64,000 bases of DNA from Mumia flava (GTDB lineage: Bacteria > Actinomycetota > Actinomycetes > Propionibacteriales > Nocardioidaceae): assembly GCF_002797495.1 (NCBI RefSeq), contig NZ_PGEZ01000001.1:744001-808000 (forward strand), in the 5' to 3' direction. The notes under the pieces were generated by a model. That model ran no database searches. It was not told the origin of the DNA and was given only the letters and a program-made list of their open reading frames with translations. Shown here piece after piece: positions 6,548 to 26,167 of this stretch (its first letter is position 1; each line of letters starts with the position of its first letter). The translations under genes and the position numbers were made by a program.

Positions 6548-6571
6548 GACTCCCCAGCCGGCTGGGGAGTC
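6548..6571. terminator. 24-bp perfect palindrome after the LacI gene
   Basis: The arms GACTCCCCAGCC (6548-6559) and GGCTGGGGAGTC (6560-6571) are perfectly complementary with no loop, 38 bases after the lacI-type stop. It can form a strong hairpin and probably ends that transcript. The same GGCTGGGGAGTC sequence is the start of the repeat units that follow, so it may simply be part of the repeat family. Confidence 0.45.
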
Positions 6572-6915
6572 CGCAGCTCGCCTCCGATGGCGGGCTGCCC
6601 AGTTGGCTGGGGAGTCCCGCACTGGACGCGGGAAACCTCCCCAGCCCGGTGAAGGCTTCCCCAGTTGGCTACGAAGACCGCCCGGGCGGATCCGCCGGGA
6701 GACCGTCGGGGGACGCGCTGGGGAGTCCGCAGCTCGCCTCCGATGACGGGCTGCCCAGTTGGCTGGGGAGTCCCGCACTGGACGCGGGAAACCTCCCCAG
6801 CCCAGTGAAGGCTTCCCCAGTTGGCTAGGAAGACCGCCGGGGCGGATCCGCCGGAAGACCGCCCGGGCGGATCCGCCGGGAGACCGTCGGGGGACGACCG
6901 GCTGGGGAGTCCGCG
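6561..6915. repeat. Gene-free tandem repeat block, 156-bp period
   Basis: The unit starting GCTGGGGAGTCCGC at 6561 recurs with few changes at 6717, a 156-base period, and begins a third time at 6903 (after an extra partial copy of the GGCGGATCCGCC segment near 6841-6900). Within each unit lie short inverted sequences: GGCTGGGGAGTC, CCAGTTGGCT and the palindrome GGCGGATCCGCC. GGTCTTCGTAGCC at 6512-6524 is the exact reverse complement of 6667-6679. This fills the 411 bases between the LacI gene and gnd; I see no gene here. Open frames through it are repeat-encoded and not credible proteins. Confidence 0.75.
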
Positions 6916-11479: not shown

Positions 11480-11869
11480 TCAGCGGGGTGCGTCGCCCTC
11501 CTCGGCCGTGGTCCACGCCAGGCCCTCGTCGACGTCCACCGGGGTCCCGGTCGGTGTCGAGGAGTACGTGCCCTCGATGTCGGCGTCGTCGGTGGCGGAG
11601 TGCGCTCCACCCGTCACCTTGTGCGCCGCGTCGGACACCTTGTCCTTCACGACCGGCGCCTGCGTCTTGATCGTGTCGGTCACCTTGTCCTTGACCACCG
11701 GCGCCTGCGTCTTGATCGTGTCTCCGGCCTTGGACATCCCGCTCTGGACCGGCTGGCTGCCGACCAGCTTCTTCGTCTGGGCCACGATCTGGTCGTACCG
11801 CTCGCGGCCGGCCCGGGTGCCCAGCACGTATCCCACTCCTGCGGCGAGGAGAAGTGAAGTCTTGCGCAT
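11480..11869 (-). CDS. Small YtxH-like membrane-anchored protein with internal repeat
   Basis: 129 residues. It starts MRKTSLLLAAGVGYVLGTRAG, a hydrophobic N-terminal segment ending in the GxxxGxRAGRERYDQI pattern seen in YtxH-domain proteins of actinobacteria. An amphipathic helical stretch follows with a 14-residue sequence (DTIKTQAPVVKDKV) present twice in tandem, then an acidic, disordered tail. ATG 11869 has a Shine-Dalgarno (GAGAGGAA). It is likely a membrane-tethered stress or envelope protein; the exact role is not known. Confidence 0.7.
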   Translation of the reverse strand: MRKTSLLLAAGVGYVLGTRAGRERYDQIVAQTKKLVGSQPVQSGMSKAGDTIKTQAPVVKDKVTDTIKTQAPVVKDKVSDAAHKVTGGAHSATDDADIEGTYSSTPTGTPVDVDEGLAWTTAEEGDAPR

Positions 11870-14617: not shown

Positions 14618-15756
14618 ACGCGCTCCCAGACCGCCCCGACTGCCTTGCGCATCAGCACCGCGACCTCGTCCGGCCCGTACGCGAGGTCCTGCGGCGGCTC
14701 CACGTCGGCGGCGGTCGCGGCCCACAGCGGTTCGGTCGCGCCGGCGGTCCGGACGGTGTCGGTGCGCAGCTCGAACGCGTCCGCGTCGGCGAGCGCCGGG
14801 TCGAACCCGAGCGAGCCGTACCCCGTCCGCGTCGCCGCCTCGGTCAGCGCGACGGCGTCGAAGGAGCCGCGCCGCCCGCTCGTCAGCCGCTCCCCCATCT
14901 CCACCGCCCTCGCCTCGACGAACGGGTCGATCACCGTCTGCCCGTCCGACCCGAGCGTGAGCCGCGCGCCCGCGTCGCGCAACCGGGCAGCCGGGCCGAT
15001 CCCGTCGGCGAGGTCCGCCTCGGTCGTCGGACAGAGACACACGTACGACCCGGCGTCGCCCAGCGCCGCGACGTCCGTGCCCGTCAGGTGCGTCGCGTGC
15101 ACGGCCGTGGTGCGCGACGTCAACGCGCCGGACTCGGCGAGCAGGGCCGTCGGCGTCCGGCCGGTCGCCGCGACGCAGTCGGCGTTCTCCGCCGGCTGCT
15201 CGGAGACGTGCGCGTGCAGGGGTGCTTCCGGGAGGGCCGCGGCGACGCCGGCCAGGTCCGCAGGCGGAACTGCCCGTACGGAGTGGATCGCCGCACCGAC
15301 CACGACGTCGTCGGCGCCGCGGTGCCGACGGGCGAGCTCGGCGACACGGGCTGCCCACGCGTCGACGTCGGGGTCGGCGAAGCGGCGCTGCACACCCTGG
15401 GGCGCACTCCCGAACCCCGACGCGCGGTAGCACGCGTCCAGCAGGCAGATCCTCAGGCCGGCCGCGCGGGCGGCAGCGATCAGCGCCTCCCCGGTCGCGT
15501 TCGGGTCGTCGTACGGACGCCCGTCGGGGCCGTGGTGCAGATAGTGGAACTCCCCCACGACGCCGATCCCGGCGAGCCGCATCTCGGCGTACGTCGCGAC
15601 CGCCAGGTCGTGCAGCAGGTCGGGGTCGAGCACGGCGGCCACGCCGTACATCCGCTCGCGCCAGCCCCAGAAGTCGTCCCCGCCGGTCACGCGGGCGCGC
15701 AGCGCGCGGTGGAAGACATGGCTGTGCGCGTTCGCGAACGCAGGATGACGGGTCAC
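14614..15756 (-). CDS. hutF: Formimidoylglutamate deiminase, short N-terminus
   Basis: 380 residues. It converts N-formimidoylglutamate to N-formylglutamate plus ammonia. The metal site [12 protein letters not shown] is intact, as are [60 protein letters not shown] and [13 protein letters not shown]. Family members usually have about 45 residues before the HxH motif (first strands of the composite beta domain). Here the HxH comes at residues 10-12 and the start, GTG 15756, is fixed by a GTGA overlap with the upstream gene. The upstream in-frame sequence has no HutF homology, so the protein is truly short or N-terminally eroded. Confidence 0.9.
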
Positions 15757-17192
15757 GCCAGGTCCCGTACGACGTCGGCGAGCGCGGCGACGCCCGCGTC
15801 GCAGTCCGCGTCCTCGGCGTGCTCGTCCGGGCTGTGCGACACCCCGGTGGGGTTGCGGACGAACAGCATCGTCGTCGGGATCGTCGCGCTGAGCACCCCG
15901 GCGTCGTGGCCCGCTCCGGTCGGGAGCACCGGCGCGTCCAGGAGGCGGGCGAGCCGGTCGGTCAGGGCCGGGTCGAACGTGACGGTCGGCGTCGTCGACT
16001 CCGCCGTGACGTCGATCCCGATCCCGGCCTGGTCGCCGGCCTCGCGGGCGGCGTCGGTGATCTCGGCGACGAGCCGCTCGAGCGTGGCGTCGTCGGCCGC
16101 GCGGGCGTCCAACCAGGCGGCGACCGCTGACGGGATCGCGTTCGCGCCGCCGGGATGGACGCGGAGCTTGCCGAACGTCGCGCGGGCGTCGCGGCGGGTC
16201 GCCGCCTCCGTGGCGGCGAGCACCGTCCGCGCGTACACCGGCATCGGGTCGCACCGGTCGCCCATCGGGGTCGTCCCGGCGTGGTCGGCGCGGCCCCGCA
16301 GGTCGAGGCGCCAGCGTCCGTGCGGCCAGATCGCGCTCGAGACGCCGACCGCGTCACCGGAGTGCACCAGCGCCCGGCCCTGCTCCACGTGCAGCTCCAC
16401 GAAGGTGCCGATCCGGTCCAGCCAGCCGGCGCGGCCCACGGCGTACGGGTCGCGCCCACGGGAACGCAGCACGTCGGCGAGGGTGTCGCCGTCGACGTCC
16501 CTCAGAGCGAGCGCACGGTCCGGGGCGAGGGTTCCGGCGGCGAGCCGCGATCCCGCGCAGGCGACGCCGAACCGCGCCCCCTCCTCGTCGGCGAAGCAGG
16601 CGACCGCGATCGGGCGGGACGGTACGAAGCCCTCGGCGCGGAGCCGGTCGACCGCCGCGAACGCGGAGACGACGCCGAGCGGCCCGTCGTACGCGCCGCC
16701 GTCGGGGACGGAGTCGAGGTGCGAGCCGAGGAGGAGGGCGCTGGGGTCTCGATCGCTCGCTGCGCTCGCGCCTCGACCAACGGTGGGATCGCTCCCCCCG
16801 CCTGCCCCGGTGGTCGAGGCGGGGGCGAGGGACGAGTCCCCGATCGAGACCCCAGGGTCTCGATCGCTCGCTGCGCTCGCGCCTCGACCAACGGTGGGAT
16901 CGCTCCCCCCGCCTGCCCCGGTGGTCGAGGCGGGGGCGAGGGACGAGTCCCCGATCGAGACCCCAGGGTCTCGATCGCTCGCTGCGCTCGCGCCTCGACC
17001 AACGGACAGTGCGGGTTGCCACCAGGCGACCTGGTTGCCGTTGCCGTCCTCGGTCAGCTCCATCGACCGGGCCGCGGCCTCGCCGGCGAACCACTCGCGC
17101 AGCTCGAGGTCGGCGTCGCTCCACGCGAACCGGCGGTACCCGCCGGTGCGCCGGTCGCGACCGACGTCCGCGATCGCGTCGAGCGCCTTCAC
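15753..17192 (-). CDS. M20-family amidohydrolase of the hut operon (allantoate/carbamoyl amidohydrolase-like), with in-frame repeat insert
   Basis: 479 residues. It resembles allantoate amidohydrolases and N-carbamoyl-L-amino-acid hydrolases: [21 protein letters not shown] (metal His and Asp), [12 protein letters not shown] (Glu-Glu), [46 protein letters not shown] (metal His). Within a hut operon that makes N-formylglutamate and lacks a hutG, it most likely removes the formyl group. Residues 63-150 are not part of the family: they are two and a third copies of a 37-residue repeat inserted just before the first metal ligand. Without them the length (about 390) is normal. GTG 17192 overlaps the hutU stop (GTGA); the stop overlaps hutF. 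Confidence 0.85.
16744..17005. repeat. 111-bp repeat array inside the hut amidohydrolase gene
   Basis: Units start at 16744, 16855 and 16966 with an exact 111-base (37-codon) period; the third is partial, ending at 17005. Each full unit is a nested palindrome: GGGTCTCGATCG (16744-16755) pairs with 16841-16852, and CGCCTCGACCA (16769-16779) pairs with 16811-16821. The reading frame is kept throughout, giving a low-complexity Gly/Ser/Ala/Asp protein insert. A partial copy of the same element occurs at 24993-25070 in another gene. Confidence 0.85.
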
Positions 17193-24236: not shown

Positions 24237-25088
24237 TCATCGCCCGAGCGACGCGTGCGCGGTGATCAGCGACGGCCCGTACCACGTCATCAGGCGACCG
24301 GACACCAGCTCGGTCGGGGTGCGTACGAACGTCTCCGGCCCGTCGTCGTCGGTGAACACGTACGGCTCGTCCGGCAGCAGCACCACGTCCGCGCCCGCGG
24401 CGTCGAGGTCGGCGACGTCGACGTGCGGATAGCGGTCCGGGTCGTCGGCGTACACGTTCTCGGCTCCGGTCCGCCGCAGCAGGTCGCCGGTGAACGTCCG
24501 GCTGCCCACGACCATCCACGGGTCCCGCCAGATCGGCACAGCCACGCGGCGCTGCACCGGCGGCAGCGGCCCGCACCAGAGTCGCTCGGCCTCGGCGATC
24601 CACGCAGGCTCGGGCCAGCCGAGGGCCTCGCGGAACAGCCGCCGCAGCGAGTCGAGGGCCTGCGGCACGGTCTCGATCTCGGTCACCCAGACCGCGACGC
24701 CGGCGTCACGGAGGCGCTGCACGTCGAGCCGGCGGTTCTCCTCCTTGTTCGCGACGACGAGGTCGGGGCGCAGTGCGCGGATCGCGGCGAGGTCCGGGTT
24801 CTTGGTACCGCGGACCCGGGTGACGTCGAGGCCGGCCGGACGAGTGCACCACTCGGTCGCACCGACGAGCGCATCCGGTCGGGCCTCGGCGAGCGCCTCG
24901 GTGATCGACGGGACGAGCGAGACGACGCGGGTCGCGGGGCGGCGGACGTCGAGCGGCGTGCCGAGGTCGTCGACCGGGCGGGGCGTACGAGCGGGGTCTC
25001 GATCGCTCGCTCCGCTCGCGCCTCGACCATCGGAGGAGGCGGGGCTCCCGCTCGCGCCTCGACCGTCGGGTGGGGGTGCCATGGTCAC
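24237..25088 (-). CDS. Helical-backbone metal-receptor protein (BtuF/FhuD-like fold) without signal peptide
   Basis: 283 residues. The core (RVVSLVPSITEALAEARPDALVGATEWCTRP, TKNPDLAAIRALRPDLVVANKEENR, FVRTPTELVSGRLMTWYGPS) is that of cobalamin/iron ABC-importer binding proteins. There is no secretion signal or lipobox and no permease or ATPase beside it, so it is probably cytosolic and not a normal transporter subunit. The first 30 or so residues (GRGAS repeats) are encoded by a partial copy of a dispersed repeat. GTG 25088 overlaps the upstream stop as GTGA; an ATG lies two codons further in. Confidence 0.72.
   Translation of the reverse strand: MTMAPPPDGRGASGSPASSDGRGASGASDRDPARTPRPVDDLGTPLDVRRPATRVVSLVPSITEALAEARPDALVGATEWCTRPAGLDVTRVRGTKNPDLAAIRALRPDLVVANKEENRRLDVQRLRDAGVAVWVTEIETVPQALDSLRRLFREALGWPEPAWIAEAERLWCGPLPPVQRRVAVPIWRDPWMVVGSRTFTGDLLRRTGAENVYADDPDRYPHVDVADLDAAGADVVLLPDEPYVFTDDDGPETFVRTPTELVSGRLMTWYGPSLITAHASLGR
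24993..25070. repeat. Partial copy of the hut-gene 111-bp repeat family
   Basis: GGGGTCTCGATCGCTCGCT begins a 37-base match at 24993-25029 to the element found three times at 16744-17005 (one base differs, TCCGCTCGCG for TGCGCTCGCG). A second, shorter piece (CCGCTCGCGCCTCGACC) lies at 25048-25064. The copy sits at the 5' end of the metal-receptor gene and is translated in frame as Gly-Arg-Gly-Ala-Ser-rich sequence. Confidence 0.7.
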
Positions 25089-25426
25089 TCCAGCGTGGCC
25101 AGCTGGTCCTCCAGGTGGAAGACCTCCGGCACACGCACGAACGCCTCGTCGGGGCTGCCGTCGACCACGAAGAACTCCCCCATCTCGGCCTGCCAGCGCG
25201 CGTTCACGTCGGTCGCCGCCATCGCCGCCTGGGCTGCGTCCAGGTCCTCGGACTCGACGTACCCGATCAGCAGGCCGTCGGGTCGGAGGAAGAGCGAGTA
25301 GTTGTGCCAGCCCGACGTCTTGAGCGCCTCGAGCATCTCGGGCCACACCGCGCGGTGGCGCTCCACGTACTCGTCGAGCCGCTCGGGATCGACCTGCTGG
25401 TAGAAGCAGTAGCGCGGCACAGGCAC
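25085..25426 (-). CDS. rhaM: L-rhamnose mutarotase family protein
   Basis: 113 residues, normal for the RhaM/YiiL family, which interconverts alpha and beta anomers of L-rhamnose. Key features are visible: YCFYQQVDPERLDEYVERHRAVWPEMLEALKTSGWHNYSLF (His and the Tyr/Trp active-site residues in order), GLLIGYVES and the C-terminal MGEFF. No rhamnose catabolic genes are near, and the gene is coupled by GTGA to the metal-receptor gene and then to a D-threonine-aldolase-like gene. The true sugar may therefore differ; the family name is firm, the substrate is not. Confidence 0.85.
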   Translation of the reverse strand: MPVPRYCFYQQVDPERLDEYVERHRAVWPEMLEALKTSGWHNYSLFLRPDGLLIGYVESEDLDAAQAAMAATDVNARWQAEMGEFFVVDGSPDEAFVRVPEVFHLEDQLATLE

Positions 25427-25474
25427 TCCTCGGGTCCGGGTGGGGGCGGGGACGTCGTCCCCAGTCTGCCCCGG

Positions 25475-26167
25475 TCACGCCTGCACGAACCACCGGGCCA
25501 GCAGCGTCCCGTCCTCCTCCAGCAGCGTCGCGAGTCGGGTGGGGACGTCGAGGTGGGACCCGACGGTGATCCGCCGGTGGTCGCCGCCGACCAGGCGCGG
25601 GACCTGGCTGGTGCACACCTCGTCGACGATGCCGGCGGCGAGCATGTCGGTGAGCAGGTGAGGCCCGCCCTCGCTCAGGATGCGCCCCCAGCCCCGCTCG
25701 ACCAGCGCCTCGCGGAGCGCCACCAGGTCCACTCGGTCGTCGCCGAGGACGAGAACCCCGTCCTCCCCCAGCCGCTCGACGGTCTCGGAGAGCCCGGGCG
25801 CCGCCGCGCAGGTCGCCATCAGCACCGATCCGCGCGGCGCGTCGACCAGGCTGACCGGCAGGTCGCCGCTGCGCGAGACCAGCACGATCGGTACGCCGGC
25901 CGTGCCGTACTCCTCCGCCCGGACCGTCCCCGCGCCCACGAGCACGACGTCGGCACGGGCGCGCAGCGCGTGGAACACGCGGCCGTCCGGGTCGTTGTTG
26001 ATCGAGCCGGACCGGCCGTCCGGACCGGTCGCGGCACCGTCGACGGTCTCGACCATGTTCACGCGCAGCCAGGGCAGCCGCGGCGCCCCGTACAGCGCGT
26101 CGAGCTGGCCGTCGTCGGGCTCCGTGCCCGACGTCAGGCCGGTGACCTCGTCGATCAGGACGCGCAC
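25475..26167 (-). CDS. RibD C-terminal / dihydrofolate reductase-fold protein
   Basis: 230 residues with the reductase domain of RibD-like proteins: RLPWLRVNMVETVDGAATGPDGRSG, DGRVFHALRARADVVLVGAGTVRAEEYG (dinucleotide binding), RILSEGGPHLLTDML (the SEGG loop). Enzymes of this type reduce pyrimidine or pterin-like ribityl compounds with NADPH. In this operon, after a FolP2-type protein, a folate- or pterin-related role is possible but unproven. The start is probably GTG 26167, overlapping the LigB-like gene by 13 bases; the open frame upstream is not homologous. Confidence 0.78.
   Translation of the reverse strand: MRVLIDEVTGLTSGTEPDDGQLDALYGAPRLPWLRVNMVETVDGAATGPDGRSGSINNDPDGRVFHALRARADVVLVGAGTVRAEEYGTAGVPIVLVSRSGDLPVSLVDAPRGSVLMATCAAAPGLSETVERLGEDGVLVLGDDRVDLVALREALVERGWGRILSEGGPHLLTDMLAAGIVDEVCTSQVPRLVGGDHRRITVGSHLDVPTRLATLLEEDGTLLARWFVQA

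Follow-up and report, generated by a model that had tools for sequence, protein, structure and literature searches.

A candidate REP-type palindrome expanded in frame in a loop of the hut-operon amidohydrolase of Mumia flava, and inserts of other kinds across the genus

Introduction

How a palindromic repeat came to lie in frame inside a catalytic gene of the hut operon, and what kind of element it is, are the questions raised by a locus in Mumia flava (Nocardioidaceae). The window analysed is the whole 64,000 nt stretch between positions 744,001 and 808,000 of contig NZ_PGEZ01000001.1, and coordinates below are those of the window unless a genome contig is named. A first-pass annotation of the letters had read the repeat as a palindromic mobile element that became protein-coding and that may vary in number between strains. 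The M. flava genome holding the window (G000) was compared here with five sister species of Mumia (G001–G005) and with more distant relatives.

The repeat array

TRF reports a tandem array at 16744–17005 with a period of 111, 2.4 copies, 100 % matches and a score of 524. Two full units and one partial unit had been described within the amidohydrolase gene, and this count holds: unit 1 (16744–16854) and unit 2 (16855–16965) are identical, and the partial unit 3 (16966–17005) consists of the first 40 bases of the unit and contains one REP only, giving 2.36 units of 111 bp. The array reads on the minus strand, is free of stops and is in frame with the minus-strand gene at 15753–17192, of which it encodes residues 63–150.

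Each 111-bp unit combines a good REP-like palindrome with an inverted partner that has diverged, plus a spacer. A search of the window with the 34-bp core of the good palindrome found exact cores on the plus strand at 16745–16778, 16856–16889 and 16967–17000. The inverted partners lie on the minus strand at approximately 16807–16855 in unit 1 (inverted repeats I3 and I9) and approximately 16918–16966 in unit 2 (inverted repeats I5 and I10). The palindromic character given to the unit by the first-pass annotation is thus confirmed in the form of two inverted REP-like elements per unit that fold as one long hairpin, with a computed energy of −65.8 kcal/mol for a single unit. Four matches to the 34-bp core occur in the window and none in each of 100 shuffles; its presence is far beyond chance.

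Over 223 nt the array folds at −140.2, compared with −116.9 ± 5.5 in shuffles (z −4.3), and this very stable fold is seen on the coding strand. Together with the position inside an operon, such stability would suit an array that acts as DNA or RNA, with a strong hairpin in the hut transcript modulating processing or ribosome passage and the peptide as a by-product. We regard that role as improbable, given that the insert is missing from the hut loop of one sister species, that the inserts of the other sisters differ in sequence and length, and that frame keeping argues for translation. Counting further against it, we know of no operon setting in common to the inserts in Mfd, DnaX and CobBC described below.

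Identical 111-bp units are prone to mis-assembly, and the copy number of the array could in principle be an assembly artefact. However, the junctions to unique sequence are in frame, inserts occur at the same loop in other assembled genomes, and an assembly error could alter the number of units but not the presence of the REP; this explanation is very unlikely.

Codon usage of the array scores −0.30, compared with +0.35 and +0.28 for the rest. Gene-unlike codon usage is what is expected of an insert, and nothing in it points to prolonged selection for coding. Openness of the array in all six frames was considered as a sign of selection and rejected, being equalled in 513 of 3000 shuffles.

Two other tandem repeats are present in the window. 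At 6561–6861 a 156 bp unit is repeated 1.9 times with 96 % matches and contains inverted CTGGGGAGTCC / GGACTCCCCAG-like stretches, in a sequence unlike the REP. At 11630–11722 a 45-bp unit, a length that is a multiple of three, is repeated 2.1 times.

The host enzyme and its loop

The host gene (15753–17192, minus strand) encodes a 479 aa M20-type amidohydrolase. The protein scores 578.8 bits against the NCBIfam allantoate amidohydrolase model NF006770 (cut-off 372) and matches Pfam PF01546; by sequence and fold it matches structures 3n5f and 1z2l, an L-N-carbamoylase and an allantoate amidohydrolase, which are its top Foldseek hits. On these matches it is assigned to the allantoate amidohydrolase / N-carbamoyl amino-acid hydrolase family. 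Its start overlaps the end of hutU, and its other hut operon neighbours are hutH, the formimidoylglutamate deiminase gene and hutI. N-formylglutamate as its substrate, from the operon context, is only a guess.

Residues H158, D169, E203/E204, H268 and H453 are invariant in a 27-sequence alignment (A2) and presumably have metal-binding or catalytic roles, with H158 taken to be the first residue of an HxD metal motif. H158 sits 8 residues past the end of the array, in agreement with the earlier placement of the array right before the first metal ligand. In the AlphaFold (AF2) model 347 of the 479 residues have a pLDDT of at least 90. Residues 63–147 fall below 50, between beta strands 54–58 and 152–158, and the array-encoded segment is predicted to be disordered. 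The most fitting interpretation of the insert is a flexible loop in a modelled enzyme that is otherwise intact. The protein carrying the array is presumably made and active.

Measured from the GN motif to GSHLDS, the loop has 102 aa here, against a family mode of 16 aa found in 70 of 109 homologous loci (a 110th, L196, escaped the pattern, and two of the loci, L022 and L127, are one genome). About 86–88 residues are therefore extra and the remainder is of normal family length, as had been claimed for the protein once the array is removed. An identical insert, which in distant homologues would have counted against the first-pass reading, occurs in none of the 108 other loci measured. Among viral contigs there were nine distant homologues only, with 26–32 % identity in the best segment. 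Longer loops are present at the same place in four loci outside Mumia: 53 aa in L039 (G054), 42 aa in L128 (Streptomyces sp. I6), 32 aa in L135 (Kribbella kalugense) and 28 aa in L180 (Streptomyces carminius).

Dispersal of the element in the genome

Allowing up to 3 mismatches, the 34-bp core has 128 matches in the 4.4-Mb genome of M. flava and none for a reversed-pattern control, and the same search found no match in 57 related genomes. The core is thus a short, high-copy, dispersed and imperfect palindrome of the REP kind, a 40-nt copy folding as an imperfect hairpin. Inverted pairs of the REP are present at many loci. The strand split of the cores is 81 versus 47 (binomial P 0.003).

The flanks of 62 cores with distinct surroundings carry G on one side (55/62) and A-purine-CGG on the other, with CG in 62/62; no terminal GTAG or CGTC tag is seen. 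A target motif for insertion was considered and set aside, there being little conservation past the element ends. No match to the Y1 transposase family (RAYT-type, TnpA-REP; PF01797) was found at E ≤ 0.001 in this 99.75 % complete genome, in a search whose control gave matches in 5 of 14 named genomes. A RAYT/Y1 transposase was therefore rejected as the mobilizer, and the usual engine of REP spread appears to be missing. Some enzyme presumably moves the elements.

Tandem growth of the REP is also seen elsewhere in the genome. Array L093 (G000:C2, about 937,820–938,130) has a full core followed by seven more 32-bp units, and array L113 (G000:C1:1721813–1722018) has five cores 43 bp apart; the codon model does not place either site inside a gene. 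Within the window, a second REP site at 24995–25067 on the plus strand would be read in the same frame as the array, as DGRGASGASDRDP, in a 459-aa ORF (24237–25616, minus strand). It lies upstream of a weak PF01497 match in that ORF, whose true start may be downstream of the REP site.

In-frame copies in other genes

A codon model trained on the window places 9 of 53 examined REP clusters of M. flava in frame inside genes. The 53 clusters comprise L001–L020 (with L003, L004 and L019 merged) and 36 further stretches, hold part of the 128 cores, and already include the clusters duplicated by L061 and L066. The nine genes, identified from profile matches, encode the hut enzyme, Mfd, DnaX, CobBC, HsdR, urea carboxylase, AtuA, a flavin monooxygenase and an ABC ATPase fusion, the matches of Mfd and the ABC ATPase being below NCBIfam cut-offs. 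The remaining 44 clusters fail the in-gene rule, although this rule also overlooks genuine insertions, as in hut and Mfd of G005. In five of the eight other genes (ABC fusion, HsdR, DnaX, AtuA and CobBC) the insert lies between annotated domains; the 13 aa insert of urea carboxylase lies inside an annotated domain and not in a linker. The sequence GRGxSxxSDRDx recurs at five of the nine in-gene sites (hut, DnaX, AtuA, monooxygenase and Mfd), too few to claim a preferred reading frame.

In G005, 57 stretches gave 58 clusters; stretch-end clusters were skipped, and two stretches overlap so that one cluster is possibly counted twice. Five of the 58 pass the rule, in genes for DnaX, a PabB fusion, the monooxygenase, a maltokinase-like protein and a ketoacyl-synthase protein, some of these profile matches again being below NCBIfam cut-offs. 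With hut and Mfd added by comparison, at least seven genes of G005 carry in-frame inserts; the Mfd locus and the G005 loci are cut by stretch ends. In-frame insertion into several unrelated conserved genes, as described for RPE-type elements, is thus found in both species (nine genes in M. flava, seven in G005), and the insert lies in a predicted non-structured segment in the window protein, the one for which an AF2 model was made. Four of the nine M. flava genes (hut, Mfd, monooxygenase and DnaX) have in-frame REP matches in G005 as well. The chance of such an overlap is about 4e-10 for nine and seven genes drawn from an assumed 4000 equally likely genes, a generous assumption.

The same loops in sister species

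The hut, Mfd, monooxygenase and AtuA loops were aligned across the sister species, and DnaX was compared in G005 only. Each of the four aligned loops holds dissimilar repeats in different species. In the hut loop, G001 has 46 aa with four QARSTSxx-type units, G005 has 54 aa with five APRPAG-type units, G004 has 23 aa with one short REP-like insert, and G002 has 26 aa with a non-REP insert. The hut loop of G003 is empty, at 14 aa two below the family mode. Presence of the insert therefore varies between species, the loop being empty in one sister and occupied by other sequences in four. Taken with the 128 dispersed cores (control 0), which answer the earlier suggestion to search the genome for the unit, and with the in-frame position in the gene, the sequences support the reading of a palindromic mobile repeat that has probably turned coding.

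The hut insert of G001 starts with a core at 0 mismatches that is present 12 times in G001. That of G005 likewise starts with a core at 0 mismatches, with 81 copies in G005 and 90 in G001; the G005-type core had no match in the four remaining Mumia genomes. No second copy of the hut-loop core of G004 was found in G004. Repeats dispersed in their own genome occupy the hut, Mfd and monooxygenase loops of G005 and the hut and monooxygenase loops of G001, while the Mfd and AtuA inserts of G001 and G003 appear REP-like by sequence only.

Short-unit repeats with much S, T and G make up several of the sister inserts. These, the hut insert of G002 without a REP core and the 28–53 aa loops in the four loci outside Mumia would fit permissive low-complexity linkers of GC-rich genomes that grow by slippage, with the REP likeness a matter of base composition. 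Slippage is nevertheless a far-fetched account of the inserts. The exact 34-bp cores of the array, matched in 0 of 100 shuffles, exclude a chance origin for the window array, and the 0-mismatch species-type cores of the G001 and G005 hut loops stand equally against it.

Four genomes (G000, G001, G003 and G005) carry dissimilar REP-like inserts in the Mfd loop; alignment shows 8 additional residues there in G002 and none in G004. The monooxygenase and AtuA loops likewise show turnover among species; G004 is without a close monooxygenase orthologue (38 %). Counting indel blocks of more than 5 columns, the repeat site is the sole one in hut and in Mfd, monooxygenase has one besides the repeat site (12 columns), and all those of AtuA are in the insert region.

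A tree of the four proteins, in which the outgroups are represented by the hut protein alone and two inner nodes have support of 74 and 77, joins G003 and G004 as sisters with a bootstrap of 99. These sisters are in reciprocal states, the hut loop being empty in G003 and filled in G004 and the Mfd loop filled in G003 and empty in G004.

History of the inserts

Several inserts agree between species. Type, place and phase are the same for the monooxygenase inserts of G001 and G005, type and phase agree for the AtuA inserts of G001 and G003, and the hut inserts of G001, G004 and G005 have orientation and phase in common. Such agreement would follow from a single ancient insertion per loop in the Mumia ancestor, with later gene conversion to the abundant REP of each species, some losses and no repeated insertion. 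We hold this scenario to be rather unlikely, as the hut insert of G000 starts the other way round from those of G001, G004 and G005, the phases of the Mfd inserts relative to the repeat differ among G000/G005, G001 and G003, and the reciprocal empty sites of G003 and G004 would require clean losses. The reciprocal states and the opposite orientation in G000 thus favour more than one insertion per loop, and the common type and phase of the monooxygenase (G001/G005) and AtuA (G001/G003) inserts indicate that part of the sharing is inheritance. The best reading of these sequences is a history that would mix inheritance, turnover and new insertion, with tandem growth.

The array in the window is very probably a species-specific REP element that lies in frame in an enzyme loop and has expanded in tandem, as one case of a process common to the genus Mumia. 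A species-specific REP-type element would have entered as an inverted pair, preserving the reading frame, at the turn that joins two beta strands, immediately before the one bearing the first metal ligand. Tandem duplication of the 111-bp unit would have come next, its length being such that the frame is kept. The gene would keep encoding a full M20 enzyme, plus a long loop that the model predicts to be disordered.

Across Mumia, short-palindrome families would multiply, differently in each species, and copies landing in genes would be retained where the protein tolerates an unstructured insert, so that selection for tolerance would pick the insertion sites. The same few loops would be refilled, some through inherited inserts that turn over and some through fresh insertion, after which tandem copying of a portion of the repeat would make the filled loops longer. 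There is perhaps an even chance that the hut, Mfd, DnaX, monooxygenase and AtuA loops are recurrent landing pads for the palindromic family active in each species, moved by a non-Y1 mechanism, such that orthologues carry unrelated, species-specific disordered segments of selfish-DNA origin.

Comparison with known systems

Palindromes in frame within genes are described for Rickettsia, Wolbachia and Methanocaldococcus in the available portions of three reports (PMC10969869, PMC3733652, PMC2996958). Like the Mumia REPs, the Rickettsia palindromic elements are, as these portions present them, dispersed palindromes in frame in unrelated genes at unstructured places (PMC10969869, PMC3733652, PMC2996958). 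In contrast to them, the Mumia inserts belong to a high-GC actinobacterium and consist of short REP-type units with a 111-bp tandem expansion, and the same loops of orthologues bear different repeats in sister species.

For several species, one of these sources reports intragenic REPs whose targets include repair genes (PMC3733652). According to that text, the REPs tagged with GTAG/CGTC resemble those of Mumia in being short, often in inverted pairs and inside ORFs; their repair and replication targets are uvrA, uvrB and dnaE2, and those in Mumia are Mfd and DnaX (PMC3733652). The Mumia REP differs in being untagged, with a constant CGG just outside the core. Within the text available from this source, Actinobacteria are not among the phyla named and the word ‘actinobacteria’ occurs 0 times (PMC3733652).

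REPINs and BIMEs with a RAYT (TnpA-REP), as far as the partial sources describe them, share inverted REP pairs, arrays and families that differ between species with Mumia; unlike in REPIN/RAYT systems, no PF01797 (Y1) transposase was found in the M. flava genome. The protein-coding palindromes of Wolbachia and Methanocaldococcus, intragenic ERIC and other MITE ORFs, and the enterobacterial RU elements are likewise palindromic repeats adding peptides to proteins; they belong to other hosts and are likened here by their description in partial sources. The kind of element is itself known. New here are an untagged actinobacterial REP, no detected Y1 transposase, and the use of the same loops by species-specific repeats; among the matches listed in the open-licence literature, none described coding REPs in Actinobacteria, and none a loop that had been refilled in sister species.

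Implications

For annotation, the findings are a warning that such loops are not features of the protein family. In Mumia, a genus outside the obligate intracellular bacteria, housekeeping proteins take up palindromic repeats at the same loops, and the genus offers a setting in which to seek the enzyme that moves the repeats. Empty and filled alleles in close sisters give a direct test ground for the long-standing idea that new protein segments arise from inserted palindromes. Judged from these sequences, selfish DNA seems to land in such loops repeatedly and would there become part of proteins.
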